Position numbers and translations under genes: made by a program
IMG/VR virus record: IMGVR_UViG_3300030737_000018
Location: 1-58,749 of that record
DNA from: a virus
Length of the DNA: 58,749 bases
Reading direction: 5' to 3' (one strand)
The notes under the pieces: generated by a model
Seen by the model: the letters and a program-made list of their open reading frames with translations, nothing else
Database searches by the model: none
Told to the model about the DNA's origin: nothing
Shown: piece by piece, positions 28,192 to 58,158 of the stretch
Layout: each line of letters begins with the position of its first letter
Numbering within the stretch: the first letter of the stretch is position 1

Positions 28192-28192
28192 G

Positions 28193-30247: not shown

Positions 30248-30250
30248 GTC

Positions 30251-33003: not shown

Positions 33004-33010
33004 CGACGTC

Positions 33011-34824: not shown

Positions 34825-35078
34825 AGATGATCCAGCTGGGCGTTCCGCTACACCGTCTGTGGAGCCTTCGCTTCAGTATCGCGGCGACAATCTATAGTGC
34901 CGCCGCTGGCGGCTGGGAAGTCATGCCGCATGACTGGCGTCCCGACTTGACCCATACCGAGCAGATGATCCTGGCCGGCATTGGTGTGCTTATCCCAGCT
35001 GCTGCGGCCGTGTCCCGCGTGATTGCGCAGCCCAGCTTGCACGAGCCGCCTGCGTCGCCGGACGATCCAAAATGCTAG
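34821..35078 (+). CDS. Holin
   Basis: An 85-residue protein with two membrane spans, about residues 17-35 (LRFSIAATIYSAAAGGWEV) and 49-68 (MILAGIGVLIPAAAAVSRVI), joined by a tryptophan-containing loop. The tail starts AQPSLHEPP. The RVIAQPSL ending after the second span is typical of a widespread phage holin group. It would make the hole that lets endolysin reach the cell wall. Seven bases overlap with the endolysin gene support this. Confidence 0.7.
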   Translation: MKMIQLGVPLHRLWSLRFSIAATIYSAAAGGWEVMPHDWRPDLTHTEQMILAGIGVLIPAAAAVSRVIAQPSLHEPPASPDDPKC

Positions 35079-35611: not shown

Positions 35612-35733
35612 ATTTTTTCAAGCGATTGAAGGCAGCATGGCTGGTGTTGGTCGGTAAGTGGGAAGTGCTCGAAAAGGCCGAGCTGGTGAAGATCAAAGCT
35701 GACGCCAAGGCGGCCGAGAGTAAGCTGCCATGA
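35608..35733 (+). CDS. Hypothetical 41-residue protein in the lysis cassette
   Basis: A short ORF with ATGA overlaps at both ends (endolysin before, Rz after). The start is hydrophobic-basic (MNFFKRLKAAWLVLVGKWEV), then a charged helix. It might be a membrane-associated peptide helping lysis. Support comes from the two overlaps. Confidence 0.5.
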   Translation: MNFFKRLKAAWLVLVGKWEVLEKAELVKIKADAKAAESKLP

Positions 35734-36248: not shown

Positions 36249-36325
36249 GTATAGCTATTCAAAGTCAAGGTTTTAGCGTACGGTTTCGCTCCATCCACCC
36301 GTTACCCCATCAGGAGACCATCGCC

Positions 36326-36643
36326 ATGGTCGCGTTTAACGACAAGAAAAAGAGCACGGTCCCGAGCAACGACAAGGGGTTCGGGCGTGGCAGCAGCATC
36401 AACCAGAACATGCCCGTGTCGCCGAATCAGTTCGGTAATGGCATGACGCCCTACAAGACCAACGTGAAATCCGAAGGTGGATCACCCATGCGCAAGCCCG
36501 AGCAACCCAAGTCCATCAAGACGATGAACAAGACCTTCCCGGCGCAGGTGCCGATGAAGGGCGGTGGCAAGAGCAAGGTGGGCATGCCGCAGTCCAAGAA
36601 CGTGGCGACCATCAAGACCATCAAGGGCAAGAAGCGCGGATGA
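36326..36643 (+). CDS. Hypothetical basic protein, disordered
   Basis: A 105-residue, Lys/Gly/Ser/Asn-rich protein with no hydrophobic core (KKKSTVPSNDKGFGRGSS, KSIKTMNKTFPAQVPMKGGG). CAGGAG lies before the ATG. It may be a DNA-associated head protein or an assembly factor. The 77-bp gap before it holds no gene. Confidence 0.6.
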   Translation: MVAFNDKKKSTVPSNDKGFGRGSSINQNMPVSPNQFGNGMTPYKTNVKSEGGSPMRKPEQPKSIKTMNKTFPAQVPMKGGGKSKVGMPQSKNVATIKTIKGKKRG

Positions 36644-36846
36644 GTCTCAGCGTCGATGCACAGCGCCGCCTCGATAGCCTCTTGGCTGGACATGGCGGCG
36701 CTGTGCTGAGCGACTGGCTCACGGACGAGCTGGAGCAAGTTAAGGGGGCATTATGCGTGGCACCGCTCGAGCGACTACAACGGCTTCAGGGTGAGGCGGC
36801 GGCCTACACCAAGTTGCTGTCCAAACTAACCAAGGGTAGGGAGTAA
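36640..36846 (+). CDS. Hypothetical helical protein
   Basis: A 68-residue protein (VDAQRRLDSLLAGHGGAVLS, LERLQRLQGEAAAYTKLLSK), probably a two-helix bundle. It overlaps its upstream neighbour by four bases and sits five bases before the scaffold gene. Function unknown. Confidence 0.6.
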   Translation: MSLSVDAQRRLDSLLAGHGGAVLSDWLTDELEQVKGALCVAPLERLQRLQGEAAAYTKLLSKLTKGRE

Positions 36847-36851
36847 ACATC

Positions 36852-37793
36852 ATGGCACTTGCCGCACCATCCAAGCTTCCCGCAGCGCAGCAGAAGCGCC
36901 GCGAAGCGCTCGTCACGCTGCACACGCCGCCGGCCGAAGTGGTCGACCCCGTTGTTACCCCGGCAGAGCCTGTTGCCGATCCTGTAGTGCCTGTTGCCGA
37001 AGCGCCGGTGACGTTGGCTCAGGCGGAAGTGACGGAGCTGCGTGCAGCCGCCGCGGATACCGCGCAGGCGCGCCGTGCGGCGGAGCTGGCTGTGCTGGAA
37101 GCGAACGAAGCGAAAGCCCGCTTGACAGAACTTGAACGTGCGCGTAATGAACAGCCCAGGGTCGTCGCGCCGCCGGATCTGGGGTTCGACGCCACGGCAA
37201 CGGAGTTCACCCCGGCAGAGCGCGAGACCTTCGATGAGCTTTCTGAAGGGTTTGTGGTCAAGGTGGTTCGGCGGGAGCTGGCAGCCGCGTTCCAGAAGTA
37301 CGGATCGCACATCGACACACGGCTCGAAGGTGTGGAGAAAGCGGCAACCACGGCTACCGTAACGCTGCAGCGATCCGCCGAAAAGAATTTCATGGCGAAG
37401 GTACAGGAGAATATTCCCGATGTAGGCAAGCTGGTGGGGCATACAGACTTCAAGAGCTGGATGAAGGAGTTCGTGCCCATGACCAACACGACATTCGACC
37501 AGGCGCTGGCAGAGGCCCATCGAGTGGAGAACCTTCAGGCAGTCATCGACATTTTCGATGTGTTCCGCAAGAAGGTCGGGTTGGTCAAGCCCAGTACGGC
37601 AGGGTACGCAGGCGCAGCCGGTTCCGCTGCTGCCATAGAGCCAGCCGCCGCGGCCGTCGGTAAGCGCTTCACCATGACCGAACGCAAGCAGATGAGCGAG
37701 AAGCTCCGCAAGAAACAGGTTTCGCAACAAGAGTTCGACACGTACAAGGCGGAGTTTGACAAGGCGAACGCAGAAGGCCGCGTCGATCCGTAA
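36852..37793 (+). CDS. Scaffolding protein
   Basis: A 313-residue acidic, helical protein that would shape the prohead and leave before DNA entry. It has a Pro/Val/Ala-rich N-terminus, a long central helix (VTELRAAAADTAQARRAAEL), and a basic C-terminal helix (RKQMSEKLRKKQVSQQEFDT), the usual capsid-binding end of scaffolds. Position directly before the major capsid gene is the strongest evidence. Confidence 0.75.
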   Translation: MALAAPSKLPAAQQKRREALVTLHTPPAEVVDPVVTPAEPVADPVVPVAEAPVTLAQAEVTELRAAAADTAQARRAAELAVLEANEAKARLTELERARNEQPRVVAPPDLGFDATATEFTPAERETFDELSEGFVVKVVRRELAAAFQKYGSHIDTRLEGVEKAATTATVTLQRSAEKNFMAKVQENIPDVGKLVGHTDFKSWMKEFVPMTNTTFDQALAEAHRVENLQAVIDIFDVFRKKVGLVKPSTAGYAGAAGSAAAIEPAAAAVGKRFTMTERKQMSEKLRKKQVSQQEFDTYKAEFDKANAEGRVDP

Positions 37794-37836
37794 ACCCACA
37801 CACCCCGGTTGGGGTTAGTCCACGAGGAAGAAGTCC

Positions 37837-38772
37837 ATGGCCATCCCAGCCGCCGCAGGTTACCCGCAGTATTCTGGCAATCTCATTACCCCGCTGTTCT
37901 CGATGGACCTGCTGGAGCGGTTCTACGCCAGCACCATCTACAGCGAAATCTCCTCGACCGAGTATACCGGCGAGCTGGAGAAAGGCGGCGATCAGATCAC
38001 CTTCTGGCGTGAGCCGCGCGTGCGGGTTCGTGATGCGATCAAGGGCCAGCCGATCCAGCATGACACGATCGAGTCTGATCCGATCACCATGACGATCGAC
38101 CAGTCTAAGGATTTCTCGATTGCGATGTCGCAGGTGGATGAGTTCCAGATCCAGAACTTCCCGACCTGGAAGGAGCGCTTCCTGCAGTCCGCTGGCCGCG
38201 AGCTGGCCATCGCTATCGACGGCCCGCTGATGACCGAGATGTACACCTCGGTGGACATCCACAACCAAGGTGCGACCGCGGGCAAGAAGTCTGGCAATAT
38301 CAACCTCGGCACCGTCGGTGCCCCGCTTGCCATCACCAGCGCCAATATCACGCAGATTTTTGCACAGGTGCATCAGGTGCTGGACGAGCAGAACGCACCG
38401 ACCGACAACCGCTTCATCACGGTGCCGCCGGCTGGTATCACCGCGTTGCGCAATAGCGACTTGCGTGCAGCGTACTTGACCGGTTTGAGCTGGTCGCCGC
38501 TGACCAATGGTAAGTTGCCAGACGAAGTGATGGGCTTCACCATCATGAAGTCGAACCTGATCCCGCAGGCGACGGATGTGGGCGTCAACCTGCTGGCCTA
38601 CCACGTCGTCGCCGGCGTCAAGAACGCCACAGCTTTCGCTGCGCAGATCGAACAGACCCGCGTGATCGAAGACAAGGACGACTGGGATCGCTACTACCAG
38701 GGCCTGACCGTCTACGGCTTCAAGGTGCTGTACGACGACGCGCTCGTCCACGTCTACTGCACGTTCTCCTGA
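37837..38772 (+). CDS. Major capsid protein
   Basis: A 311-residue coat protein with the strongest-looking SD sequence of the region (GAGGAAG). It starts MAIPAAAGYPQYSGNLITPL and has an extended E-loop-like part (EKGGDQITFWREPRVRVRD), then a helical spine (FPTWKERFLQSAGRELAIAI) and the beta-rich C-terminus with GVNLLAYHVVAGVKNATAFA. This matches the HK97-fold/N4-gp56-like coat family. It should be the most abundant virion protein. Confidence 0.85.
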   Translation: MAIPAAAGYPQYSGNLITPLFSMDLLERFYASTIYSEISSTEYTGELEKGGDQITFWREPRVRVRDAIKGQPIQHDTIESDPITMTIDQSKDFSIAMSQVDEFQIQNFPTWKERFLQSAGRELAIAIDGPLMTEMYTSVDIHNQGATAGKKSGNINLGTVGAPLAITSANITQIFAQVHQVLDEQNAPTDNRFITVPPAGITALRNSDLRAAYLTGLSWSPLTNGKLPDEVMGFTIMKSNLIPQATDVGVNLLAYHVVAGVKNATAFAAQIEQTRVIEDKDDWDRYYQGLTVYGFKVLYDDALVHVYCTFS

Positions 38773-42965: not shown

Positions 42966-44354
42966 GTGGCCTATAAGAACGCGCATGGGGTATCCGGGTA
43001 TCTCACCCAGCCTCTGCCTGCGTCGCTCACGGCGACGACGATGCAGCTCGATGCCTCAAGCGCGGCACAGCTGAAGAACTTGTTGGGCTCGCCTGACTGG
43101 ACCTTCATGCTGATCGGCACGGGCGCGACCTGTGAAGTGGTGCAGGTATTCTACAGCGCCTCGACCAACTTCCCCATCACGCGCCAGCAGGATGGCAGCC
43201 TGCTCAACGCCCACGTTCGCGGCGATCCGGCTCATTTCGAGCTGACAGCGTTAGCTGTCGCGGCGGAAGTGACCCCGGTGCCCATGACGGTCACGGGTGA
43301 GAATCTGGCCGTCGTATCGACGAGTGGCCTGGATGTCAGTATTAATGTGGCGGAACCTGCTTTCACAGGTAGCGGCTTGGCCATCACAGGCAGCTGGCCA
43401 AGCCTCACGTTCACCGTGACCGAAGACGATACCAGCTGCTGCGGGGGATCGAGCGGCGGCGGAAGTGGCGGCATCACCAGCATATACGGCTCGGGCCTGG
43501 CTGAAGCGGCGCAGAGCGGAGCCATCGTCACTATCACCGTACCGGAGCCGGCCTTCACTGGCTCGGGCATCACTATCTCGGGAAGCTGGCCGAATCTTGT
43601 ATTCACAGCAGGCGGAGGCGCAGCCGGCACGGTGACATCGGTTACGGGCGGCACAGGTATTACCGTCACGGGCACGCCGTCCATTGCCCCGGTGGTCAAC
43701 CTCAGTGCGACAGGTGTCACCGCAGGAGCCTATGGCGGCCTCACGGTCAACGCGCAAGGGCAGCTGACAGCCGTAGACCCTGCGTTCAACCCGCCCAGCA
43801 GTATCGTCAGTGGCAGCGCCGCGATTACTTCAGCGCGCGTAGGCAATGTCCAAACGCTGACGGCGACGTCAGCGGCAGAAGGTACGGTGGGTGTGGTAGC
43901 CCTCGCCGACGCCAGCGACCCGCTTGATCCTTCGGATCACTCTACCGCGGTGAATCCAGCCTTGTTGGCCGCCGTGATCGACTCACTGGCCGCGACCTCC
44001 GTGTCGGGTGTATCGACGTATACTGCAGTCTCGACCGGGCTCTACACCAATATCATTTCCGGCGCCGTGCTGGCTGTGAATATCCCCTCGGGCGAGTCGC
44101 TGTTGGTGCACGCTCATGCCACGATGGTCAACACGTCGACGCCGCTCACGCCGGTGGCCTTTGGGATGGCTATCTTCAATACGGCTGGCTCGGGCACGAT
44201 CATCCAAGGCGACCAGTCGATGACCCAGTCGCAGCAGTCCATGAGCATCATCATCAACGGCCCGCTGGTGACCAGCCTGGCTCTTCTGACGACGGCGGTG
44301 CCGAGCGGGTCGGCGGTGCTTAGCTACGGTCTGGTGGCCCTGGCGCCGGGATGA
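42966..44354 (+). CDS. Tail/fibre-like structural protein with internal duplication
   Basis: A 462-residue protein starting at GTG 42966 with AGGAG upstream. The first 100 residues form one domain (AYKNAHGVSGYLTQPLPASL). Two copies of a short beta unit follow (EPAFTGSGLAITGSWPSLTF and EPAFTGSGITISGSWPNLVF), separated by a Gly/Ser linker with a CC pair. The C-terminal 150 residues are a beta domain that looks like a fibre tip. Likely on the particle surface. Confidence 0.6.
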   Translation: MAYKNAHGVSGYLTQPLPASLTATTMQLDASSAAQLKNLLGSPDWTFMLIGTGATCEVVQVFYSASTNFPITRQQDGSLLNAHVRGDPAHFELTALAVAAEVTPVPMTVTGENLAVVSTSGLDVSINVAEPAFTGSGLAITGSWPSLTFTVTEDDTSCCGGSSGGGSGGITSIYGSGLAEAAQSGAIVTITVPEPAFTGSGITISGSWPNLVFTAGGGAAGTVTSVTGGTGITVTGTPSIAPVVNLSATGVTAGAYGGLTVNAQGQLTAVDPAFNPPSSIVSGSAAITSARVGNVQTLTATSAAEGTVGVVALADASDPLDPSDHSTAVNPALLAAVIDSLAATSVSGVSTYTAVSTGLYTNIISGAVLAVNIPSGESLLVHAHATMVNTSTPLTPVAFGMAIFNTAGSGTIIQGDQSMTQSQQSMSIIINGPLVTSLALLTTAVPSGSAVLSYGLVALAPG

Positions 44355-45544
44355 GCAGTATCGTTATCAAGCGTTTCGCTGGGATGCGTCCGCTGGAGGA
44401 CGCTCGCCTGCTGGACAACAGCGAGGCGCAGATCGCGCACAACTGCCTCCTTACTGACGGGTCGCTGCGCCCGATGCCCCGGTGGGCGCAGATGGGGGCG
44501 CAGACGCCTGCCATTACCGTGGGGCGGGCCAATACTCCCTACACACCGGTGCCGGGGATCTGCGGCATGGTGTTCAACGGCCCCCCCTTCGGGCTGCAGA
44601 CCATCTACCTGGATGGCTCGGGCAACGTCAACCCCGACGCGAACAGTAGCGCCAGTGGCAGTATCAGCATCGCCCCCGGATACCTCTCGCAGAAGGCCGT
44701 GAACCGCGTCTATGGGGTGACCTCGGTGCGCGTGTTGGGCGATGTAGCCTACGAGTCGGCGCTGACCATTCTCTACGGATCGAACCCGGACGGCCTGATG
44801 TACGAGGGGGATATCGCCACCATATCGGTGGCCTGCACGGGAGACTATGCACGGGTCTACCGTAGCACCTCGGACGTGACGACAGGTGCTGGTACTAACG
44901 GCGCGGTCACGGCGAACTGGCAACTGGTCGTGGACCAGCTTCCGACAGGCGAAACGTTCATTGACGGCGGTTCGGCGGTATCCAACCCGTTTGATACCTA
45001 CCTCTATCGTGGCCCTCTCACCCCGCCGTTCAGTGCGATGGCGATGGGGCTGCTGGAGAGCGGCTTTGTCTGGCTCATCTCGACGGACGGCCAGATCGCC
45101 TTGTCGGATCGTTTTACGTGGGGTATCTGGCCGGTGGAGAATCGTTACAGTCTGGCGAATGCTCCGGCGCAAACCGGGCTGCTGGTGACGGGCGCCGTGT
45201 CTGTGGGCGATCGGCTTTATGTGGGAACCCAGCTGGGGGCGTATGCAGGTGAGGCACACGTCACGGATGCCGGAGCCGTGGTGCTGCAGATGCTGCCTAT
45301 CCCCGGCTCCTATGCCTGCCTCCCCAACACGATGGTGGCGACGCCCGATGGGGCGCTCTATACCTGTGCCCAAGGTGTGGTTGCGCTATCGGGTAATCAG
45401 GCGCAGATGCTGTCTCGCGATATCGCGCGGGGTGTGGCCGGTACGCTACCTGCGGGTGCCGGCGACGTAAACTTCAGCCAGGTCGACCAGGCCTTCTACC
45501 ACAATGGCCGGTACTATGCGTTCGGTGGGGGTAACCAGACATGA
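44351..45544 (+). CDS. Tail nozzle/tube-like protein, N-terminal and propeller-like part
   Basis: A 397-residue protein. It starts SSIVIKRFAGMRPLEDARLL and continues DNSEAQIAHNCLLTDGSLRP, a signature of a phage tail protein family whose full-length members are longer. The middle is a beta-propeller-like series (WLISTDGQIALSDRFTWGIW, LYVGTQLGAYAGEAHV, DGALYTCAQGVVALSG). It ends after YAFGGGNQT without the WRS-type C-terminal domain, which is found in the gene at 46251. Confidence 0.65.
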   Translation: MSSIVIKRFAGMRPLEDARLLDNSEAQIAHNCLLTDGSLRPMPRWAQMGAQTPAITVGRANTPYTPVPGICGMVFNGPPFGLQTIYLDGSGNVNPDANSSASGSISIAPGYLSQKAVNRVYGVTSVRVLGDVAYESALTILYGSNPDGLMYEGDIATISVACTGDYARVYRSTSDVTTGAGTNGAVTANWQLVVDQLPTGETFIDGGSAVSNPFDTYLYRGPLTPPFSAMAMGLLESGFVWLISTDGQIALSDRFTWGIWPVENRYSLANAPAQTGLLVTGAVSVGDRLYVGTQLGAYAGEAHVTDAGAVVLQMLPIPGSYACLPNTMVATPDGALYTCAQGVVALSGNQAQMLSRDIARGVAGTLPAGAGDVNFSQVDQAFYHNGRYYAFGGGNQT

Positions 45545-46251
45545 TCGTGCTTGGTCTTCAAGGAGCGCACACGGGCGATATCCTCATGGCGCTGCCGGCG
45601 ATCGCGGCGCTTTTGGCACGTGGAGAAAAGGTCGGCGTGGCCTGTCCTGAGCCCTTCGCCGAGCCACTGCGCCATCTGCCGGTGACCTGGGCACGCGATA
45701 ACCAAGCGACGGACTTCGCCGACTTCAAACGCAAGCACCATACCGATGCATGGCTTGACCACTTTGGCGTCACCCCGATCAAGATGCCCATCAACCCGCA
45801 GCGCAGTGTGATGGACCCATGCCTCCCGAAAGGGCGCTGGTGTCTGCTGTCGCCGTGGGCGGATGCTCCTGATAAGCGTTGGGATTTGCTGCGCTGGATC
45901 GCTGTAGGCCGAGCGGCCATGCGTGAGGGGTATCAGGTGGCTGTCGTAGGGCCGCAGCGAGCCAACATGCTCGGCATGAAGATCGCCAACGCCTGTGGCG
46001 CAGTAGACCTCGTAGGGCGCTGCACGCCGCGCACCTGGCCTGCACTGTTGGCCCAAGCTTCGCTGGTGATTACCCCGGACACGGGTGCAGGGCATATGGC
46101 TGACGCCTTGAGTGTGCCGGTCATCGGGCTCTATGGTGCGACGCGGCTGTATGACTGTGCCCCCTACTGGGATCGGCGTTACTGCGTGGAGGCTAAGGGT
46201 ATGGACGCGATCAGCACGGCGACGGTGATTGATCAGCTGAGGGCAGCCTGA
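45541..46251 (+). CDS. GT9 glycosyltransferase (ADP-heptose:LPS heptosyltransferase-like)
   Basis: A 236-residue enzyme of glycosyltransferase family 9. Visible features are GDILMALPAI (12-21) in the N-terminal Rossmann half, LSPWADAPDKRW (103-114), and LVITPDTGAGHMADAL (175-190) with D180 and H185, the heptosyltransferase nucleotide-sugar site. It is short for the family (usually above 300 residues), the N-terminal half being reduced. It lies between two tail genes with ATGA and TGATG overlaps. It may add sugar to a virion protein or to host LPS; the acceptor is not visible from sequence. Confidence 0.8.
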   Translation: MIVLGLQGAHTGDILMALPAIAALLARGEKVGVACPEPFAEPLRHLPVTWARDNQATDFADFKRKHHTDAWLDHFGVTPIKMPINPQRSVMDPCLPKGRWCLLSPWADAPDKRWDLLRWIAVGRAAMREGYQVAVVGPQRANMLGMKIANACGAVDLVGRCTPRTWPALLAQASLVITPDTGAGHMADALSVPVIGLYGATRLYDCAPYWDRRYCVEAKGMDAISTATVIDQLRAA

Positions 46252-47174
46252 TGGCGAACCTGCTCCTTACTGCGTCGAACTGGAAAGACTTCAATGCCGT
46301 CACGCCACCGGCAGACTGGACAGGCACCCAGTACACCACTGATTTTTCAGCGGGCGGCGGGGCGTTTTTCGAGCTGCAGTTTATTGGCTCCTTCGTTGAC
46401 GGCGACACCTTCACGGCCAATATCACTTCAGAGCCGGCGGGGTCTTCGTTTGGTTCACCGGAGATTTTCAGCGGTGCCGCCTATCTCAACTTCGTCAACA
46501 CCTCGGGCGACGTGGTGTGGGCGTCGCCCGCGTTCAACTCGACAACGCCAACCAGTGTCAACATCCCGGCACAAGCGGGGTCGTTTGTACTGGCGGCTTC
46601 GTCATCGGCCAATGCGGCGCAGCATGCCTATTCTGGCATTATCTTCGTTACCCCCGTTCTACCTCCTGTGCCCGGCCCTGGTTTCGTGCTGGCGACGGGC
46701 GACACGCTTAGCCCCTCCAGCGGCCCTGGCGCACTGACGACGATGCTCCTTCCGACGCTATCTAACATCGTTGGCTCGGCGCCTAGCTATGTCCGCGCGC
46801 CGTGGGGCGCGGCGCTGGTGTTCTACGGTGGTAGTCCGGTGTATTCGCTTCCCCTGCCGGAAGACGTAGGACTTCCTGCCTACGAGGGGGCACCCAAGCA
46901 GAAGTTTACGTGGCGGTCCAAGAAGTTCGTCTTCCCCGGCCAGACCACGTTTGGCGCGGCCAAGGTGGTGCACTCGTGTGCCGGCGGTGGCGTACGCTTC
47001 AAACTGTATATAGACTGCTGCTGTGTCTTCGAGACGGTCGTACGCGGGTGCGTGCCGTTTCGCCTGCCGGCTAACCTCCGGGGCATCACTTGCGAGATCG
47101 AACTATCAGGCTGTTCGCGGGTGACCGAGGTACGCGTGGCTTCATCTATACGGGAGTTGATGGGCGATGAATGA
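46251..47174 (+). CDS. Tail nozzle-like protein, C-terminal part
   Basis: A 307-residue protein. The first 140 residues are a Ser/Thr-rich beta domain (FSAGGGAFFELQFIGSFVDG). The C-terminal 100 residues contain KFTWRSKKFVFPGQTTFGAA and VPFRLPANLRGITCEIELSG, then VTEVRVASSIREL. That ending is usually the last domain of the longer tail protein whose front half is at 44351. Several cysteines cluster here (DCCC and others). Confidence 0.6.
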   Translation: MANLLLTASNWKDFNAVTPPADWTGTQYTTDFSAGGGAFFELQFIGSFVDGDTFTANITSEPAGSSFGSPEIFSGAAYLNFVNTSGDVVWASPAFNSTTPTSVNIPAQAGSFVLAASSSANAAQHAYSGIIFVTPVLPPVPGPGFVLATGDTLSPSSGPGALTTMLLPTLSNIVGSAPSYVRAPWGAALVFYGGSPVYSLPLPEDVGLPAYEGAPKQKFTWRSKKFVFPGQTTFGAAKVVHSCAGGGVRFKLYIDCCCVFETVVRGCVPFRLPANLRGITCEIELSGCSRVTEVRVASSIRELMGDE

Positions 47175-47691: not shown

Positions 47692-48510
47692 ATGGCCGCC
47701 GCGGTTTTCGAAACGGATCTGACGGAAATCATCACGCAAGCCGTCGAGGCGGCGGCCATGATTGGTTCTCTGTGGTCGAGCTTTGGCGTCGTGGACTTGG
47801 CGCGCAGCTACTACAACCTCTACAACGCGCAGCGCCAGTTCTACTACTCAACGTTCCAGCAAGGCGCTGAAGCACCGTTGGCCGTGGCCGTCTACAACAC
47901 CCCGATTGCCACGACACAATACGCAGGATCGGCGGCACAACTCTACAGCCCCACTGGTGTGTTCGGCGGCCTGATGGGGGATATCGACGGGTGGTGGGCA
48001 CGGCATAGCCAGATGTTTGGAGCAGAGCAGGCGATACCGATTCTTACCGATGAAGTGGCACAGGACTACATCCTGATCCAGAGCCAGTGGACCAACGTGA
48101 TGTTCCGTTTCGCCGAGGTCAACTTCGATCTGTTGAGCGAGCAGCGCTGGGATCACCGTATGAAGCTGCACAACGTCGCCCTGAAACAGATGTCGACCGT
48201 GCTGGGCGGACTGGCGTCGGCGGTCGAGTCACGCGAGGATACGCTGTCGGATCGAGCATCCAATTTTGCCGATATGTCCAACAGTGCCGCGCAGCGTCGT
48301 GGACTCGTGCAGGGGCACAAAGATGTACAGGCGCGCTACGCGGCGTTGGCAGGTTCGGCAGGGAACAACTATCAGCCACCTGCGGGTGCAGCACGGGCAC
48401 GCACGGGCGCGAGCACTATGCCTTACAGCGCATCGACGTTTGCTTTGAACAGCCCTGGCGCCGTGACGCGTGGACAGCAGCTGGGCCAATCCATGACTAC
48501 GGTGAACTGA
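47692..48510 (+). CDS. Internal virion protein candidate A
   Basis: A 272-residue protein with an N-terminal membrane-like segment (AVEAAAMIGSLWSSFGVVDL), a Tyr-rich stretch (SYYNLYNAQRQFYYST) and a Gln/Ala-rich helical C-terminus. In order and character it resembles the small internal proteins ejected by podoviruses ahead of the DNA. It is followed by a protein of similar style. Confidence 0.55.
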   Translation: MAAAVFETDLTEIITQAVEAAAMIGSLWSSFGVVDLARSYYNLYNAQRQFYYSTFQQGAEAPLAVAVYNTPIATTQYAGSAAQLYSPTGVFGGLMGDIDGWWARHSQMFGAEQAIPILTDEVAQDYILIQSQWTNVMFRFAEVNFDLLSEQRWDHRMKLHNVALKQMSTVLGGLASAVESREDTLSDRASNFADMSNSAAQRRGLVQGHKDVQARYAALAGSAGNNYQPPAGAARARTGASTMPYSASTFALNSPGAVTRGQQLGQSMTTVN

Positions 48511-48511
48511 G

Positions 48512-49234
48512 ATGGCCGTCGACAACAAGACTTACACCGGCGGTAACCAGACCCAGTGGGGTGCTGACTCTCAAGCCGTCTCGGATATGTCGGGTGGCAA
48601 GTCGGCGGGCGGCATGCGCGGCATCGGCCTCATCGCCTTTGTCCTCGGGCAGATATTCCTCAACAACAAAGCCCTCGACCTGTCGCAGGACTACTACAAC
48701 ACCAACAAGCAGGACTTTGACTTTTTCCAGCACACGCACCAGGCGCCCATGGCCGCCAGTGCAGCGGAGGCGTTCAACCCCACTGACAACCCGACCTACC
48801 AGCAGGATCTCTATGTCGCGACCCCAGCGGCGGCGGCTCGCGTGGCGGAGATGGACCGCCAGTGGCTGATGGCCCGCAAGAGCCTGTCACGGTACGCTAC
48901 CGGTGCGGGTAAGCGGCTGGACTACGAGTATGCCAAGAATCGCGTACAACAGATGGCTGCGAACTGGTACATGGGATTCCGCAGTGAGCTGACCTATGCG
49001 CAGGATCACAACGAGCGGCAGTTCAACCGGCAGGTGATGGTCGTTAACATTGGCATCGGCGCAGCGAATGAAGTGGCGAAGGGACTAGCCTCGGCAGAGA
49101 GTGGGCTGAACAAAGCGTATACTCAGGCCGGGAACCAGCTCGGCTCCATGGCTAGCGGGTTATCGGGGTCGATCGGGCAGAAGCAGGGGCAGGCTGATAC
49201 CAAAGCCACTTACAAGTCAATCACAGGATCTTGA
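48512..49234 (+). CDS. Internal virion protein candidate B
   Basis: A 240-residue protein with a Gly-rich N-terminus, one membrane-like span (GIGLIAFVLGQIFLNNKA), and a long helical region with DYYNTNKQDFDFF. The style (YYN motif, Gln/Ala helices) is similar to the previous protein, so the two may be distant paralogues. Probably part of the ejected set. Confidence 0.55.
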   Translation: MAVDNKTYTGGNQTQWGADSQAVSDMSGGKSAGGMRGIGLIAFVLGQIFLNNKALDLSQDYYNTNKQDFDFFQHTHQAPMAASAAEAFNPTDNPTYQQDLYVATPAAAARVAEMDRQWLMARKSLSRYATGAGKRLDYEYAKNRVQQMAANWYMGFRSELTYAQDHNERQFNRQVMVVNIGIGAANEVAKGLASAESGLNKAYTQAGNQLGSMASGLSGSIGQKQGQADTKATYKSITGS

Positions 49235-49237
49235 GCC

Positions 49238-50023
49238 ATGGCTGATTACGTCAATCCCTTTGGTGGCTACGCCCAGGGCTATACGCAGGGATCGGAGCTG
49301 GAAGATCGTTTGCAGCAGAACGCACGGCAGGCGCGGCAAGCGGATTGGGAAAACCGATACATCAATCCAGACAAGGCTCAGCAGTCGCATGTCGCTACGC
49401 GCGAGGCGCAAGCGCAGGAACCGTACTACAACCAAGGGCTGCAGCCAGCACTGGACGCCTTGAAGGCAGACTCCTTCATGAAGCAGCTCGGCGCAGGTAC
49501 ACAAGCCGCAGACATTACGGGCAACGCGGTCGGTGTCCAGAACTCCTTCCTGAAGAACTACGGGCAAAACACAGGGGCAACTGACGCTGACATCGTGGGG
49601 GCCGTGCGCCTTCCTGCGGCAGAGAACTTCGCGCTCGGTTTAGGGCGTAATCAAGCCCTACAGACGACGGCGGGAGCACGGGGGGAAGCAGCCGATGCGT
49701 CGATGCAGCGAGCGCTCTATCCTGTCGCTCCGGCGCCTGCTGCGGGTGGGTACGACTACAAAGGGGCGTTGAACCCCTTCGGTACGCCTGCGGTGCCTGC
49801 GGCAGGAGCGACGCCAGCACCCCCACCTGAAGGCAGCGACGCACCGGGGGTTAACCCCCAAGGCTCCGCGATCACGCCGTTCCACCAGTTGGACCCGATG
49901 GCCCAGGCACACGCCATTCACTACACCAGTCAGCTAACTGGGCATCCCCCGGAAGCCGTTGCGCAGCACATCGCTTCGCAGATGCCGAGGAGCAATTTCA
50001 GCACTGACCAGCAGACGGCGTAA
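49238..50023 (+). CDS. Internal virion protein candidate C
   Basis: A 261-residue protein, polar and Ala/Gln/Pro-rich (MADYVNPFGGYAQGYTQGSE onward). The C-terminal third has the Pro-rich APAPAAGGYDYKGALNPFG, then a helical segment near HQLDPMAQAHAIHYTSQL. It shares one base with the transglycosylase gene that follows (TAATG). No enzymatic motif. Confidence 0.5.
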   Translation: MADYVNPFGGYAQGYTQGSELEDRLQQNARQARQADWENRYINPDKAQQSHVATREAQAQEPYYNQGLQPALDALKADSFMKQLGAGTQAADITGNAVGVQNSFLKNYGQNTGATDADIVGAVRLPAAENFALGLGRNQALQTTAGARGEAADASMQRALYPVAPAPAAGGYDYKGALNPFGTPAVPAAGATPAPPPEGSDAPGVNPQGSAITPFHQLDPMAQAHAIHYTSQLTGHPPEAVAQHIASQMPRSNFSTDQQTA

Positions 50024-50745
50024 TGGTCTCCTCTATCGACCAGATCCTCGGTCAATACGGTCTAGGCGCCAGCACGCCGGGGGCGACGACGGCCGCGGAT
50101 AATCTCGGTGCGCAAAGCACGCCGTCGCCGGGCGCAGGACCTGTTGACCCCGCTATCGGACAAGACCCCGTGGCGAACCTGCGACAGGCCGTGGACTATG
50201 CTAAGCAATTGGGCGAGCAGGCGCGGAGCAGTATTCACGCCGGCGCACAAGTCGCTGCCAAAGCGCCAGGTATCGTTGGCACCCTCGGTACAGCAGCCGC
50301 ACAAGCCACCGCCCCTACGCCCGCCCCGGTGGACGCACCTTTCGTCGCCAGCCTCATCAAGCAGCACGAGTCCGGCGGTAACTACTCGGCAGTGAATCAT
50401 GACCGCCCTGGCAACACGGCGTCGGGCGCGTATCAGTACACGGACCCGACGTGGAATGGCTATGGTGGCTATCGTAGCGCCGCTCTCGCGCCTCGGGCAG
50501 TGCAGGACCAACGGGCGACGCAGGACATAGCGGCTAACTTGCAGAAGTACAATGGTGACGCGTTCAAGGCGATCGCCCATCACTACCTGCCCGCCGCGGC
50601 GAACGACCCCGCAACGTGGTCGCAACCCTATAAACTACCCAACGGGCACACGGTCGCGCCGGTGCTGGATTACGTCAAGGCTACGGTCGCCAACACACCA
50701 CTGCAGGGGCAACTCGATGCGTACCTCCGACACTACACTGGCTGA
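50023..50745 (+). CDS. Virion-associated lytic transglycosylase
   Basis: A 240-residue protein. The first 100 residues are a disordered Ala/Pro/Gly region. The C-terminal domain has the lysozyme-like signature FVASLIKQHESGGNYSAVN (107-125) with catalytic E116, SGAYQYTDPTW (134-144) and a closing helix. It would cut peptidoglycan locally during DNA ejection rather than cause lysis, since it lies among virion genes and lacks an export signal. Confidence 0.75.
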   Translation: MVSSIDQILGQYGLGASTPGATTAADNLGAQSTPSPGAGPVDPAIGQDPVANLRQAVDYAKQLGEQARSSIHAGAQVAAKAPGIVGTLGTAAAQATAPTPAPVDAPFVASLIKQHESGGNYSAVNHDRPGNTASGAYQYTDPTWNGYGGYRSAALAPRAVQDQRATQDIAANLQKYNGDAFKAIAHHYLPAAANDPATWSQPYKLPNGHTVAPVLDYVKATVANTPLQGQLDAYLRHYTG

Positions 50746-51061
50746 TGTCAACCCCAAGGATGGCGGGAACTCACTGGTCAACGAGCTGCTGAAATACAAC
50801 GTCGCCTACGATGAGGCGGTCGAAGGCGTCACCGAGGAAAACCCCTTCCTCACCTATTACGCCGGTGATGCGCTCAGCGTCGAGTTTCCCGGCTCGTTGC
50901 GTGAAGCCTCGGACGACCACCGCTCGCTCTATATCGTCGCACCGGATAACCCGATCGAGTCCTTCAGTCTGCTCGCACGCAAGGTCATCCCCAACACGCT
51001 GGCAAAGCTGCCCAAGAGCGCCCTGCGCAAGGCCCTCGGCACCCTACTGGATAACGCATGA
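50717..51061 (+). CDS. Hypothetical protein before the giant gene
   Basis: A 114-residue acidic protein (NELLKYNVAYDEAVEGVTEE, YAGDALSVEFPGSLREASDD) with a basic C-terminal helix (ARKVIPNTLAKLPKSALRKA). The ATG chosen gives a 29-base overlap with the transglycosylase gene. The TGA overlaps the ATG of the giant gene. It may be a chaperone or partner of the giant protein, from position only. Confidence 0.55.
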   Translation: MRTSDTTLADVNPKDGGNSLVNELLKYNVAYDEAVEGVTEENPFLTYYAGDALSVEFPGSLREASDDHRSLYIVAPDNPIESFSLLARKVIPNTLAKLPKSALRKALGTLLDNA

Positions 51062-54000
51062 TGGACAGCACACAGACGGCGGTTGATCCTTCGGCACCGA
51101 ACCATGCCTCCGATGCAGACGTCAACAACTACATGGCTGGCCGTCTGCAGCAGATGCAGGCGCTTATGCCGCCCCCGGTGGATTCGAACGGTGCTCCAGG
51201 CGGCGCACCGCCCCCCGGCCCTAGGCCACCTCCGACGCCTGCTGTCGACGCTCCGAGCTGGAACGATGAGCTGAGCGCGGCAGAGAAGGCTAATGGAGGT
51301 AAGCCGCTGGAGCCAGACAAGCTGCAGGACTTGTCCAATGCCCACTGGGCACGCTCGACGCTGCCTTCGCTCTACCTGGCCAACAAGACGTTGCCGGTGG
51401 CGAAAGTCGCTGCGTTGAAGAACGCCTATGACGCCAACTTCAAACAGTTTGCTGATCAATACCACGCCAAGAACGGCGCAGCAGTCCCACCTTCAAGCAG
51501 CGCAGCTGCCGATTTTCTGAAGTCAGCTGCCGGCTCTATCGGTCAAGGGCTGCTGGAGGCCGGACGTTATATTCCTGGCGGTATCGCCGCTACCACCGAT
51601 GATCTCTACAACGCCGTGCATGGCACCACCGGCAACCCGCAGGCAGATGCCTACTTCGACTGGTACAACAAGAATGTCGATACACCGGGGCGAGAGGATG
51701 CGCTGAAGAAGATGCAGAGCGATGCAGCCGCCAGCTCCCCGGTCTCTGCCTTTGTAGGGCAGCTTCCGGGGGCGATCGCTTCGGGTGGCACGCTGCCCGC
51801 CTTGAACGCCGTAGCTAATGAACGCGATGCGGGGGGCACCATAGGGCAGCAAGAAGCCACACTCGGCCTGAATACCGCAGCGAACCTCGCTGGCATGGGC
51901 ATTGGTGGTGGCCTCACGGGCACGCTGGGCCGTCGTCTGCTCAAAGGCGGCCTAGCCAATACGGCATTGGGCGTAGGCCAGACGGTCGGGTCCAATCTGA
52001 TCGATCCCAAGAACAACCCCATCGACGCCAAGAACGTAGCCATGCAGGTCGCGCTGGGCACGGCGCTGGGTGAACTAGGGCATCAGGTCAATACCCGTGT
52101 AGCAGCCAACAAATTCGCTGGTGCTGAAGGCCACGCTTCTACCGACCCTGCCTACGCAGCGCGTAAAGCCTATGCGATGGCTGGCGGCGACCCCACAACG
52201 TATGCTCCGGGCATGACACCTCCCAATGGGGAGACTACACAGGCCAAGACCCAATTCAAGGCAGCCGCGGCCGCAAAAGCAGCGTGGGCAAAAGCGGGTG
52301 GCGACCCCAAGGCATATGGACCTGCTCCTGGTCCTGTCGATCTTTCTGGCAAACCTGTGGTGGATAGCCAGGGTAAGCCCGTCCAAGTGGCCGACGGCAT
52401 CGAGTTGCCGACTAATCCTAATGTCCCCACAGGCGCCGGCATACCCGACGCACAGCACGCCAAGATCGTGGCGGAGGCATCAAGTCGAGCCGCCACACCT
52501 GCGGGCGTAGCGACAGCGAAACTGGCAGCTACCCGATCCGACGCCGCGGCGGAGATAGTAGCCACGGCACAGAACACAGCGAAGAAAGCCGCGGGTCCGG
52601 CTTGGGACGCCATGACCCCGCTGCAGCAGCATGCCGCGACTGAGGCGGCGGCGGTTACGCTGAACCGCGTAGCGAAAGCCGAGGGTGTTCCCGGACTGCT
52701 GGACCAGCAAAGACAAGCGGCAACAGCGGCAGGCCAACCTACTCCAACGGTGACTGAGACAGGCCAGCCGGATATTCAGGGCCAAGCCCCCGGCATGCCG
52801 GGCGCACCGCCGCAGGCCGCACCACAAAGCGAGCCGGGTGCCCCGGCCGAAGAAGTGCCGGGGCAAGAATCGGGTGAACCCCTCACGCCCCATCCCGAGC
52901 TGGGACAGAACCTGGCCGCCGAAGCCATGGGTGGCGATCAAGCCGCGAGTCCGCTGGACACCGCACCGAAAGACCCACTGGACCAGACGGCAGCCCAAGC
53001 CGATACGCTGCAGAACAAGCAGCTGCACTCGGCGCTGGATCAGGCGCTGACCAAGATCCGCAAGGGAGTACGCACAGCATACCCGACCAACAAACTCGCC
53101 AAGATGACCTTGGAGGAGAAGTACGCGGCCTACCAGAAGGAGACGACACCGACACCGAGTGCGACCAAGAGCGAAGCGGTGCCCGGTGAAACTATGGGCA
53201 ATATCAGCCCTGAAGGAAAGATCAGCATCCGCCACCGCGATGGCAGTGTAGAGAATGTGCGTAATCCAGCGCGGCCTGACGTTGAAGCCGCTGCCGCGAA
53301 AGTGGACGCCCCCGGCATCAACAAGATCAATGATCTTGGCCACCCACGGCAACTGGGCGAGCCGCTCAGCAGCAAGACGCCGGTGGTCACGACCAAGGAC
53401 GTGCACCTCGCCGGCGGCGTCAGCCAGGACGGCAATACGATCTACATCGACCAGCGGATGCCCAAGTACGTCAACGTGGGCGGCCGGCGGATCAACGTCC
53501 ATGAGGCGGTGGCATTGCACGAACGTGTCGAGTGGCCCCTGATGAAGGAGATGGGTGCGGTCTATCACGACGCGCACGACGCCGCCACGGCGGCGGAGAA
53601 TCACTTCATCCGCCAGAAGTACGGCGTCGACCCGCTCAAATATCAGGATGCCTTAAAGGCCGCGATCAAGAAGGCCGGCATAGAGAACCGCCACCCCAGC
53701 GCTGACATCCCCGCCGATCTGGACAGCCAGCCCAATGTGGACTTGGGCGACACAGCACCCTTGGAGGGGAAAGTCGTCCCTCAACGAGCCGGCCTACGGG
53801 CAAAAAAAGCCCCGGCTCCAGTGGAAGCAAACCCGCTGGAGCCAACCGCCTCAAGCGAAGCCGCTGATGTTGTAGGCCAGACGCTTGAGGGCAAAGTCAC
53901 GCCCGCCGATCTGGCCGACGTGCGAACCATGGTGGAGCGTGCCCAGAACGGCCTGCCCGAAGACCTGCACGCGCGTATCCACGAGATGCGTGAAGACGAC

Positions 54001-57000
54001 GTCATTACCGCCAACGAGGCCAAGGCGCTGCGGCAGGCGGGGCGAGAGACACCCCGTAACACCGCCGAGCGGGACACGGGCGTAACGAAGGCAGTCGACG
54101 CTGGTCACGAAGAGCTGCTGGAGGATGCCCAGCGCAGTGAACCCCCGACGACCGATCTCGGCCGGGCTGCCGATGAGGTGGCGCGGGCGGCGGATGAGAT
54201 TCCTACAGGTCTCAAGAGTGACCGCGCGCGTGCGGCGGAGACTATCGCCAAGCTGCGCAAGCTGTTCCCCGACAGCCCTAACCATCAGAAGGGTATCGAC
54301 TTTCTCGCGTGGACGCTGGGCAAGAACCCGGCGCTGATCCGCACCATCAAGGGCGTAGCGCGTACCCCCGAAGGGGTGAACTACGGCGGGCGCTTCGGCT
54401 CCGTCTCGCGCATCCTGGAGCTGGTCGATCGCAAGGACATGGCGCCCAACACTGCCGTGCACGAGCTGATGCACGCGGCCGAGTCGCTGCTGCCGCAACC
54501 GATCCGCGACGCCGTGCTCAAAGCGAGAGAGGCCGAGATCAACCGTCTGGCACCGCAAGCCGCCCCGGCCGAGAAGGCCATGTTTGAGTACCTGCAGAAC
54601 GGCCTCAAGGCGTCCAGCCCCGAGGAGCGGGCGCTGTATATGCAGGGTGCGAAGGACGAGCTGCTGCATCTGCGCGACAGTCAGGGTGCCACCGGCAAGC
54701 GTATCGGTGAACTCTACTCGCTGGTCAACAGCTCTGAATACTGGGCCGTGCACGCTACTGACATGCTGCAGGAAGGCTATCTGCGCAAGGGGCTGTGGGC
54801 ACAGGCGCACCAGTGGCTCAAGGGCTTCATCGAGCAGATCCGCTCGCTGTTCAGCGGCAACCCGAACCGCGACGCCATCATCAACGGCCTGCAGCACATC
54901 ATGGGGACGCAGGAGACCGGCACCCAGAGCTTCCTGCGCGACTACGAGCTGACCAAGGAGCGATACGCCGGCCAGCCGGATGGTCTGACGCCTGTGGCCG
55001 CTATGGGGCAATTGCATGACCTAGTGATGGACGCAGCAGACGAGCATGAGAACCAGATCGAGCGCTCCCGCGACATCGCCACTAAGTTCGAGGAGACGGT
55101 CGCTGACCAGAAAGCGTTCCTGTTCAAAGCGCAGGAGGGGCTGCGCCGCATCCTTGGCGTCGACGCCATCAAGCAGGCACACGACCTGGTGGACGCTGCC
55201 CGGCTCCTGAGCGGCGATCGTGGCTGGCTGGTCAAGAAGGCCATGACGGATTATGGCCATACTTTTGAGGCGACCTTCGCTGCGCACAGCGACGCCATCG
55301 ACATTGACCCGGTACGCGCGGCAGATAAGCTCGGCATGTTCACCCAGGCGCGGCACACCGTAGAAGCCCTCTACCCCGAGATGTACCGCCGCGAGGTGCC
55401 GCTCAACAATGGCGAAGAGATGTCGCGCCAGGAATTGAACGAGCAGTTGAAGAACCTGACGATCGCACCGAAAGAATATCGGAAGCAGATGACCGACTTA
55501 GTGCGTCAGAATGCCAGCCAGCCTTTCAATGAATGGGCACATAGTAAGTACGGCAAGCTGTTCGAGCAGTACAAGAGCAAGCTCAAGGAGCTTACGGACC
55601 AAGGCGTCCGCGCGGCTGTCGAGAAACACTTCGATGGCCCCATGCAGGCAATCAACGAAGAGTCTATTCGCCTCAACCATGCCTCGGGCCGGGTAGCCAC
55701 AGACGATCCGTATATCGAGGCTAATGGCTTCCCGCATTACGTCCCGCTGCGTGGGCACGCACTTGACGGCACCTCCATGGACGAAGCCGCTCCGACGGAC
55801 GATTTCGGATCTATCCGCCGCCCATGGCTCAACTCTGGCAACATCGCCAAGGAGATGAAGACAGTCAAGGGGCGGGCGACATGGGCGCAGAACTCCGCGC
55901 TTAGTCTGCTTTCCCGCATGCAGGAAGCGGCTCGCGGCGTCGCAGATGGCCGCTTCACCAAGACACTGCTCGATACGGTTACCGCACATGGCGAGGCGCT
56001 CCAGACCAAGGCTGAGACGCTGGAGAAGGCACTCGGCGCGGAGACCAACGAGGCGCGTAAGGCAGCTCTGGCCAAGCAGCTGCAGGAAGTCAAAGCCAGC
56101 GAATTCTCCAACACTACGGTGCGCTCTTTCACGGGTACGCCGCGGGATGGCTATGACGACATAGCGACGGGGCAGCACTACGACGAGATGCCTAAAGTGC
56201 CCAACTCGGTCGTGCACCACGAAGGACGCGAGCACTACCTTATCCAGTTCCCCGAGAACAGCGACACGTACCGTGGGCTACAGGCGATCAACACCAACTA
56301 CGATCCGCGCGAGTTCCCCATGATCGGGAATGTGCTGGGCTTCGTGGAGCATCAGGTACACAAGGTAACGCGCCCCTTGAAGCTGGGCGAGCCGACGCAT
56401 TTGATCGGCAAGAGCACGGCATTCATCGCGCGGACCAACACTGTGTTTAACCCGGTGTTCACTGTGGGCAAACTCCTGCTGCGCCTGCTGCAAGAGAAGG
56501 GCGTCATGTTCTCGATCCAGAACGCGAAGGGTCCGATCGACAGTGGTGTGATGCTTGCTAAGGTCTATGCGAATTATCTGGGCGGCGTTTTTCACAAGGG
56601 CACAGGCGAGGCTCTTGTGCTGATGCTGAAGCATGACAACGCGGGGCTGCGCGCTCTAGGCGCCAAAGATCCGGATAGTTTCGCCGGCTTGATGATGCGC
56701 ATGAATGAGGCTGGCGCGTCGACTGAGTTCAATCAAGAGATCACCATGCACGAGCAACGTAACGTGCTGGTGATGGCGGCGCTGCGCAAGCAGCAGAACC
56801 TGCTTTTCAGAGGCGTTCGCGCCGGGTCTAATGCGCTGTCGGGACTGGCCGATATCGCCGAGAATATCCCCAGCGTGGGTATCTTCCGTTACCTGACCCA
56901 GAAGGGCATGAGCGACCGGGAAGCCGCTGCGCGTGTCAAGGGGTCCTTCGATCTGCAGCAGCGCGGCACGGCAGGTAAAGCGATCAACGGCGTGCATGCG

Positions 57001-58158
57001 TTCTATCGCATCGGAGCAACCGCAGGAGACAACTATCTGCGCGCCTTCCGGCACCCCTTGGGGCTACATACCGAGATGGTCATGGGGCGTCCGGTGCAGA
57101 CCTCCGTGGACTGGGCCAAGCTGGCGAAATTCGGAAGCGCTTGGGCCGGTGTCGCTTTTGCCAGTTACCTACTGCAGGCAGAGACTTTGGGCAACGACGA
57201 CCAGGGTAAGTCGCGCATGTCCAAGATCATGAGCATGGACCCCACCGCCGCCGTGGAGCACACCTTCATTGGCAACGGTACAGACAGCCCCTTCTCCTAC
57301 CCCACGGGGTTAGGTGCGACACAGTTCCTTACTGCTCCCGGTACCCTCATGGCCGCTGTCGCGCGCAAGGACATTACCATCGAGCAAGCGGCCGATGCCT
57401 ACGGGCACATCCTCATGCGTAATATACCGTTAGCCGAGGGCAACCCGGTACCGAAGGACGCCGGTCTACTAGCCCATCTATTCGCTATCGGCATGGGCGC
57501 AGTGACGCCCACTGCGGCGCAGCCAGGCGTCGGCTTGGAGAAGAATCTCAACAGCTTCGGGGAGCCTATCCATACTACACACGATAACCCGGCTTTGTTT
57601 GCCGCAGACCAGGGTAAGACCAATACGCCAGAAATGTGGAAGGAAATTGCTCAGTCACTTCGTGAGCATACGGGGGAAGACTTCTACCCCGAAACCCTAC
57701 AGTTCCTTTCCGAGAACTACATGGGTAGCGTACCTACCGATCTGCTTCGCAGCACATTGGGGCAAACCTCTCGGGCTGCGGTCGGCCTTCCGAACAATAC
57801 CTTGGAGTCCGTGCTGAAGCTGACGCAGGATACTTCGTACTATGACTCCAGCCACGTCTATCAAGTGTCGAAAGAACTCAACGAATCCCTTCAGCAACTC
57901 GACAGCATCCGCTTGGCTGCGGGCCCTAAAGGGTCTCCTGCTTACGAAGAAGCGGGGCAGCAGTGGCTCTCCAGTAACCCCGACGCGCAGAAGAAACTGG
58001 TGGCGCTGAACCAGCTCACGGCGGCGCAGAAGACGTATCAGGCGGGGCTCAAGGCGTTGGTCAACTCCAAGGATGGGCTGGAGAGGAAGCAGTACAACAG
58101 GAAGAAGCTCGACTCGGCGTTGCGCACGGCGACGGATGCGGCGGAGAAGACGCTTTAG
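51058..58158 (+). CDS. Giant polyvalent internal virion protein (LPD38-like, zincin-like motifs)
   Basis: A 2366-residue protein, 12 percent of the window. In order: a Pro/Ala-rich start; glycine-rich amphipathic segments (about 150-330); two copies of a short repeat with AGGDPxxY (about 369-386 and 404-422); Ala/Pro linkers; a motif HEAVALHERVE (815-825); a zincin motif HELMHAAE (1135-1142, HExxHxxE); long helical coiled-coil regions; and a C-terminal region (about 1950-2260) with LQQRGTAGKAINGVHAFYR, resembling large polyvalent protein-associated domain 38. Such proteins are packaged and ejected with DNA. The protease role is inferred from the motif. The start is ATG 51058 or the adjacent ATG 51061. 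Confidence 0.78.
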   Translation: MMDSTQTAVDPSAPNHASDADVNNYMAGRLQQMQALMPPPVDSNGAPGGAPPPGPRPPPTPAVDAPSWNDELSAAEKANGGKPLEPDKLQDLSNAHWARSTLPSLYLANKTLPVAKVAALKNAYDANFKQFADQYHAKNGAAVPPSSSAAADFLKSAAGSIGQGLLEAGRYIPGGIAATTDDLYNAVHGTTGNPQADAYFDWYNKNVDTPGREDALKKMQSDAAASSPVSAFVGQLPGAIASGGTLPALNAVANERDAGGTIGQQEATLGLNTAANLAGMGIGGGLTGTLGRRLLKGGLANTALGVGQTVGSNLIDPKNNPIDAKNVAMQVALGTALGELGHQVNTRVAANKFAGAEGHASTDPAYAARKAYAMAGGDPTTYAPGMTPPNGETTQAKTQFKAAAAAKAAWAKAGGDPKAYGPAPGPVDLSGKPVVDSQGKPVQVADGIELPTNPNVPTGAGIPDAQHAKIVAEASSRAATPAGVATAKLAATRSDAAAEIVATAQNTAKKAAGPAWDAMTPLQQHAATEAAAVTLNRVAKAEGVPGLLDQQRQAATAAGQPTPTVTETGQPDIQGQAPGMPGAPPQAAPQSEPGAPAEEVPGQESGEPLTPHPELGQNLAAEAMGGDQAASPLDTAPKDPLDQTAAQADTLQNKQLHSALDQALTKIRKGVRTAYPTNKLAKMTLEEKYAAYQKETTPTPSATKSEAVPGETMGNISPEGKISIRHRDGSVENVRNPARPDVEAAAAKVDAPGINKINDLGHPRQLGEPLSSKTPVVTTKDVHLAGGVSQDGNTIYIDQRMPKYVNVGGRRINVHEAVALHERVEWPLMKEMGAVYHDAHDAATAAENHFIRQKYGVDPLKYQDALKAAIKKAGIENRHPSADIPADLDSQPNVDLGDTAPLEGKVVPQRAGLRAKKAPAPVEANPLEPTASSEAADVVGQTLEGKVTPADLADVRTMVERAQNGLPEDLHARIHEMREDDVITANEAKALRQAGRETPRNTAERDTGVTKAVDAGHEELLEDAQRSEPPTTDLGRAADEVARAADEIPTGLKSDRARAAETIAKLRKLFPDSPNHQKGIDFLAWTLGKNPALIRTIKGVARTPEGVNYGGRFGSVSRILELVDRKDMAPNTAVHELMHAAESLLPQPIRDAVLKAREAEINRLAPQAAPAEKAMFEYLQNGLKASSPEERALYMQGAKDELLHLRDSQGATGKRIGELYSLVNSSEYWAVHATDMLQEGYLRKGLWAQAHQWLKGFIEQIRSLFSGNPNRDAIINGLQHIMGTQETGTQSFLRDYELTKERYAGQPDGLTPVAAMGQLHDLVMDAADEHENQIERSRDIATKFEETVADQKAFLFKAQEGLRRILGVDAIKQAHDLVDAARLLSGDRGWLVKKAMTDYGHTFEATFAAHSDAIDIDPVRAADKLGMFTQARHTVEALYPEMYRREVPLNNGEEMSRQELNEQLKNLTIAPKEYRKQMTDLVRQNASQPFNEWAHSKYGKLFEQYKSKLKELTDQGVRAAVEKHFDGPMQAINEESIRLNHASGRVATDDPYIEANGFPHYVPLRGHALDGTSMDEAAPTDDFGSIRRPWLNSGNIAKEMKTVKGRATWAQNSALSLLSRMQEAARGVADGRFTKTLLDTVTAHGEALQTKAETLEKALGAETNEARKAALAKQLQEVKASEFSNTTVRSFTGTPRDGYDDIATGQHYDEMPKVPNSVVHHEGREHYLIQFPENSDTYRGLQAINTNYDPREFPMIGNVLGFVEHQVHKVTRPLKLGEPTHLIGKSTAFIARTNTVFNPVFTVGKLLLRLLQEKGVMFSIQNAKGPIDSGVMLAKVYANYLGGVFHKGTGEALVLMLKHDNAGLRALGAKDPDSFAGLMMRMNEAGASTEFNQEITMHEQRNVLVMAALRKQQNLLFRGVRAGSNALSGLADIAENIPSVGIFRYLTQKGMSDREAAARVKGSFDLQQRGTAGKAINGVHAFYRIGATAGDNYLRAFRHPLGLHTEMVMGRPVQTSVDWAKLAKFGSAWAGVAFASYLLQAETLGNDDQGKSRMSKIMSMDPTAAVEHTFIGNGTDSPFSYPTGLGATQFLTAPGTLMAAVARKDITIEQAADAYGHILMRNIPLAEGNPVPKDAGLLAHLFAIGMGAVTPTAAQPGVGLEKNLNSFGEPIHTTHDNPALFAADQGKTNTPEMWKEIAQSLREHTGEDFYPETLQFLSENYMGSVPTDLLRSTLGQTSRAAVGLPNNTLESVLKLTQDTSYYDSSHVYQVSKELNESLQQLDSIRLAAGPKGSPAYEEAGQQWLSSNPDAQKKLVALNQLTAAQKTYQAGLKALVNSKDGLERKQYNRKKLDSALRTATDAAEKTL

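Follow-up and report, generated by a model that had tools for sequence, protein, structure and literature searches.

In phage polyvalent proteins, zincin-like metallopeptidases (MPTases) are the commonest domain, being found in about 36% of these proteins, with more than one in 8% of those (Iyer et al. 2017, PMC5512222). The same study proposed self-processing and host targeting as roles for polyvalent MPTases, and it unified with the zincins the HExxH domain of the phage N4 virion polymerase, a protein that is packaged whole and uncut and whose HExxH-bearing C-terminal region is required for encapsidation (PMC5512222). In a 2025 cryo-EM preprint, this N4 domain with its HExxH motif is named C1, and an autoinhibitory role is ascribed to the C-terminal domain (PMC12633501). 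Metallopeptidases are also often borne by MuF phage toxins (PMC5576092). A preliminary description of the locus studied here had regarded a protease acting on host proteins or on its own polyprotein as a new activity for this group; given the 2017 list and proposals, this novelty has to be given up, both for the activity and for the two suggested uses of it (PMC5512222). In the literature cited here, no direct demonstration of cutting by a metallopeptidase in an ejected phage protein has been reported. The proposal has nevertheless stood since 2017, and two delimited, foldable domains with candidate residues, as described below, make it testable.

The giant protein and its genome setting

The window, that is, the whole stretch of DNA analyzed, is the complete IMG/VR virus record IMGVR_UViG_3300030737_000018 (58,749 bases). 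The features that set the scene for the two domains are as follows:

26356..38772, + strand: terminase large subunit (26356), portal/head-tail adaptor (28193), and major head protein (37837)
44351..47174, + strand: two proteins related to the internal virion protein family phrog_511 (E-values 8.9e-11 and 9.8e-13), with another late gene between them
47692..50023, + strand: three cysteine-free late proteins (272, 240, and 261 aa), candidate ejection proteins by cysteine count
50023..50745, + strand: transglycosylase, 240 aa, no cysteine, probable ejection-cassette partner (PF06737, 33.3 bits, cut-off 27)
51058..58158, + strand: giant polyvalent-type protein, open ORF of 2366 aa, no cysteine
52195..53307, + strand: low-complexity linker, residues about 380-750, rich in Pro, Ala, Gly, Gln, Ser, and Thr (composition, conservation profile)
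57268..57756, + strand: large polyvalent protein associated domain 38 (LPD38), residues 2071-2233 (Pfam PF18857, 38.8 bits, cut-off 27)

The giant gene starts with an ATG that overlaps the stop of the preceding ORF and is the last gene of a late module running from terminase, portal/head-tail adaptor, and head genes through internal-virion-type proteins and the transglycosylase, while the opposite genome arm encodes DNA polymerase A and an SNF2-type helicase. The 2366-residue ORF and the positions of its two motifs, HELMHAAE and HEAVALHERVE, agree with the preliminary description, and both motifs persist in two relatives that are 42% (L002) and 59% (L003) identical. A Pfam scan of the giant protein returned LPD38 as its sole match. 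A 169-aa ORF with three cysteines (50552-51061), for which no family match was found, runs from within the transglycosylase gene into the beginning of the giant gene.

Cysteine is entirely lacking from the giant protein (2366 aa) and from two divergent relatives (2397 and 2276 aa), as it is from the N4 virion polymerase (3500 aa). Among 76 distinct MPTase-bearing large ORFs, it occurs at 0.14 per 1000 residues, compared with 8.2 in the other ORFs of the same loci. Giant ejected virion proteins have been described as marked by their lack of cysteine (PMC3915230), a criterion also applied elsewhere (PMC10747016). The protein further combines the features by which polyvalent proteins are recognized (Iyer 2017): it is large, occupies a late-gene position next to a transglycosylase, and contains LPD38 above the gathering cut-off. 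Judged by sequence features of this kind, which support ejection, the giant protein is likely packaged and ejected with the DNA. In the window, four small late proteins (272, 240, 261, and 240 aa) and the giant form a block at 47692-58158 with 3379 cysteine-free residues, whereas most genes neighboring this block do have cysteine; the block may delimit an ejection cassette.

The HELMHAAE domain and the known polyvalent metallopeptidases

The C-terminal one of the two motifs lies in a domain with the following features:

54238..54960, + strand: zincin-like metallopeptidase (MPTase) domain, residues 1061-1301 (approximate), from alignment, relatives, and AlphaFold2 (pLDDT 88.0, pTM 0.83)
54460..54483, + strand: HELMHAAE, residues 1135-1142, predicted active-site helix (H1135, E1136, H1139, and E1142 invariant)
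54733..54747, + strand: SEYWA, residues 1226-1230, with E1227 as predicted third ligand (S and E invariant in the alignment)

A profile scan with this domain gave 77 viral loci, and HExxHxxE was intact in all 87 loci whose match spans the motif (repeated contigs counted), even though this motif was not among the search patterns of the scan. SEYWA was among them, so its conservation is partly selected. Across 53 diverse sequences, H1135, E1136, H1139, E1142, S1226, and E1227 are invariant. When the sequence of the giant protein was shuffled, HExxH appeared in 8.7% of the shuffles and HExxHxxE in just 0.6%, and HELMHAAE alone is therefore unlikely to have arisen by chance.

The AlphaFold2 model consists of a hairpin, the active helix, and a later SEYWA helix, with HExxH and E1227 at helix positions. 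This resembles the described polyvalent MPTases (PF18818, N4 C1, and P1 DdrB), in which the HExxH helix follows a beta element and an acidic third ligand comes from a later helix, and which likewise occur in giant ejected phage proteins with LPD and lysozyme-type partners, ejection being a prediction in the present case. The window sequence differs from them in having HExxHxxE where a described clade has Asp three residues past HExxH, and it is also too distant for Pfam: MPTase-PolyVal was matched by one member only, at a sub-threshold E-value of 0.035. Foldseek with the MPTase model retrieved generic helical proteins, with no significant zincin match. The profile match of the domain to N4 and P1 DdrB is weak and local; for the N4 virion polymerase, hhalign gave a local match (E-value 0.008) with the common local motif ETLIHELVHA.

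Residues 1081-1288 are the only part of the giant protein that was matched in annotated phages, namely, in the giant DarB-like proteins of Erwinia phages PEp14, Pavtok, and Stean. These MPTase homologues are 26-28% identical over about 200 residues and contain HEILHHTE and SEYWA, and the PEp14 giant also lacks cysteine. In contrast, the Erwinia proteins measure about 4900 aa, roughly twice the window protein, and no domain corresponding to the second one described below was detected in them. Taken together, residues 1061-1301 very probably form a polyvalent-type MPTase of gluzincin type, and the domain is a member of an already known kind.

Domain A, a conserved domain with an HExxE...H site

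The other motif, HEAVALHERVE (residues 815-825, DNA 53500-53532), belongs to a separate domain, here called domain A:

53350..53775, + strand: domain A, residues 765-906, about 140 residues, HExxE...H family (alignment; AlphaFold2 pLDDT 87.8, pTM 0.82)
53518..53532, + strand: H821-E822-R-V-E825, core of the predicted metal site (133/134 homologues)
53575..53577, + strand: H840, predicted third metal ligand (133/134 homologues; aligned to the second His of the DtxR-family metal site)
53596..53598, + strand: E847, invariant acidic residue on a helix common with H840 (134/134 homologues)

The preliminary description had seen here a second histidine-rich site of another type. That the type is different was borne out, the motif being HExxE...H and not HExxH, but H815 was rejected as a metal ligand, as H815 and E816 are unconserved and mostly D or R in homologues. 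The invariant or nearly invariant residues of domain A are D798, H821, E822, E825, Y836, H840, E847, and Y862, and H821, E822, E825, and H840 are all present in 133 of 134 distinct homologues. In the single exception, on a viral contig (L158, 2885-3256), these four residues have been lost together while D798 and E847 remain, as expected if they make up one functional site; judged from its sequence, this homologue is a candidate pseudo-enzyme. Some of the scan patterns for domain A contained HExxE, H840 and E847 were never search patterns, and contigs that were found again by a pattern outside the site gave the same conservation picture.

No match at a usable E-value was found for domain A in Pfam, PHROGs, or NCBIfam, and the string HEXXE does not occur in the text of Iyer et al. 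2017 (PMC5512222). Domain A is a family uncatalogued in these three databases and undescribed in that text. No other part of the giant protein is as constrained within the window clade: domain A is 89-91% identical to the window sequence, compared with 34-79% elsewhere. At fourfold sites, it differs from both relatives by about 0.51, which lies within the range of the neighboring regions (0.45-0.68); the high identity is therefore attributed mainly to constraint, and a recent exchange of DNA was rejected. Domain A and the MPTase domain were also rejected as copies of each other (hhalign probability 0.6%).

A first genome scan with the window sequence of domain A as query gave no matches. A broader alignment succeeded: its profile, built from a weak free-standing relative and then from Mesorhizobium plasmid copies, matched 146 stretches of bacterial genome sequence as well as 65 viral loci, and a second broad viral scan added no new branches. 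Among annotated records, domain A was found on plasmids only and in no phage record. In a sample of Pseudomonadota, it was present in 5 of 299 genomes (centre genome included), and the gene is therefore patchily distributed. As a small gene of its own, it is present in proteobacteria (Rhodanobacter and Dyella, for example) and in phages, and as a fused domain in about seven unrelated phage proteins of portal/MuF, InPase-ART, LPD-bearing, and post-transglycosylase giant types. Beyond the window clade, four fusions have it at their C-terminus: a portal-MuF protein (L145), a MuF-like protein whose gene adjoins a portal gene (L109), a protein with InPase and ART-PolyVal domains (L103), and a further protein (L139). 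The first two connect domain A with the MuF minor head proteins and MuF toxins, although neither a MuF nor a portal domain is present in the window protein. Two other proteins, one of 2303 aa with LPD22 (L147) and one of 1333 aa (L142), contain domain A internally, and their genes come after a lysis/transglycosylase gene as in the window; in one group, the free-standing phage copies adjoin terminase and portal genes. Domain A adds an uncatalogued family common to bacteria and to phage proteins with predicted injection, and it is a candidate new injected domain for phage research.

Some observations on its surroundings may be added. At 5199-14609 of L103, three phage ORFs in a row, each about 1000 aa long, cluster together; the first contains 5' nucleotidase-like, InPase, ART-PolyVal, and A domains. 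The Mesorhizobium plasmid copies (L012, L013, L014, and L015) adjoin ferritin-like, CsbD, PRC-barrel, and sigma factor genes, a gene context that hints at a stress-related role of the bacterial version. A stretch near the C-terminus of N4 gp50 (L239, residues 3330-3381, HEYMEK) was rejected as a copy of domain A, its similarity being too weak to be significant.

Kinship and possible roles of the two domains

The AlphaFold2 model of domain A has short strands, the HExxE helix, a helix with H840 and E847, and a third helix. In a PDB structure search, mini-zincins and PprI/IrrE took ranks 1-3 and made up about 15 of the 50 best chains, none with an E-value below 1. In a viral structure library, two true homologues were found, one of them named large polyvalent protein, and the next neighbors were mostly SprT, IrrE, PolyVal metallopeptidase, and M48 proteins (E-values 0.1 or weaker). 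The structure prediction proposed in the preliminary description has accordingly given confident folds for both domains, which support the fold class, but no significant match of either to a solved zincin. The best sub-threshold fold neighbors of domain A, mini-zincins (selecase, jannalysin, and abylysin) and SprT/IrrE, have, like it, a helix bearing HE and after it another helix that supplies a ligand, but they have HExxH where domain A has HExxE and then H840. As zincins are recognized by HExxH and domain A has HExxE in 133 of 134 homologues, it is not assigned to the zincins; to our knowledge, no known zincin uses HExxE...H.

The main alternative, which we hold to be possible but doubtful, is that domain A is a non-catalytic metal site, sensory or structural, like the helix-helix site of the DtxR family, and is not a peptidase. 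The domain A profile matched no solved structures other than DtxR-family repressors; the two share the relative positions of H, E, H, and E (i, i+4, i+19, and i+26), and H821, E825, and H840 align with DtxR H79, E83, and H98, which we take to be the ancillary metal site. This shared H-x3-E-x14-H-x6-E pattern on two helices is accompanied by some DtxR chains among the weak fold matches of domain A and by the stress-type genes beside the Mesorhizobium plasmid copies. The profile match, however, has an E-value of just 0.57, which is not significant; the N-terminal part of domain A is predicted as strands and not as the winged helix-turn-helix of DtxR repressors; and E822 is invariant save in one relic, whereas DtxR chains have R there. 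Zincin-type and DtxR-type leads would both place a metal on two helices, and a zincin-like, possibly catalytic domain A is favored because the Glu that follows the first His is invariant and strands are predicted in place of a winged helix.

From these results, we infer, with modest confidence in the proposal as a whole, an ejected polyvalent protein with a self-cutting MPTase and an independent metal-binding domain A. In its proposed layout, a variable, linker-rich N-terminus would be followed by domain A, a second linker, the MPTase, and a long helical C-terminal part with LPD38, and the whole protein would be packaged by a podovirus-like phage and ejected along with its DNA. The MPTase would bind zinc via H1135, H1139, and E1227 and use E1136 as general base; it would most likely cut its own polypeptide in a linker, either in the capsid or after entry, so that modules including domain A would be freed in the host. 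Domain A, with a zincin-like sheet-plus-helices fold, permuted ligands H821, E825, and H840, and E822 as candidate base, would most likely act inside the host cell once freed. A more specific version, in which domain A is an active HExxE-x14-H metallopeptidase, free-standing in proteobacteria and repeatedly captured and injected by unrelated phages, must be considered tentative. If domain A is a true peptidase, a zincin-like active site would tolerate a swapped His/Glu ligand set, and such sites would escape HExxH motif searches.

An alternative for both domains, which we consider unlikely, is that they are relics or structural packaging parts and that neither cuts. In its favor, the N4 protein, whose corresponding region is needed for encapsidation, is packaged uncut (PMC5512222), and it would fit the autoinhibitory C-terminal domain of the recent preprint (PMC12633501). 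Against it, very divergent sequences have retained every putative catalytic residue, which a purely structural role would not require, and domain A also persists in bacteria as a gene on its own.

Less probable again is that one or both domains cut host proteins on entry, for example defense proteins. Polyvalent and MuF proteins do bear host-directed effectors (PMC5512222, PMC5576092), and domain A has ART and InPase domains as recurrent neighbors, yet the sequence reveals neither a target nor a host interaction, and the existence of free-standing copies in bacteria points to an ordinary role in the cell. Finally, that both motifs are chance matches in a low-complexity protein, to which the frequency of bare HExxH in shuffles might lend some color, is refuted by the alignments of both domains and has next to no probability given the confident folds as well. 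In the window, as the preliminary description had it, two different predicted metal sites do occur in one giant, probably packaged protein, each in a conserved and foldable domain.
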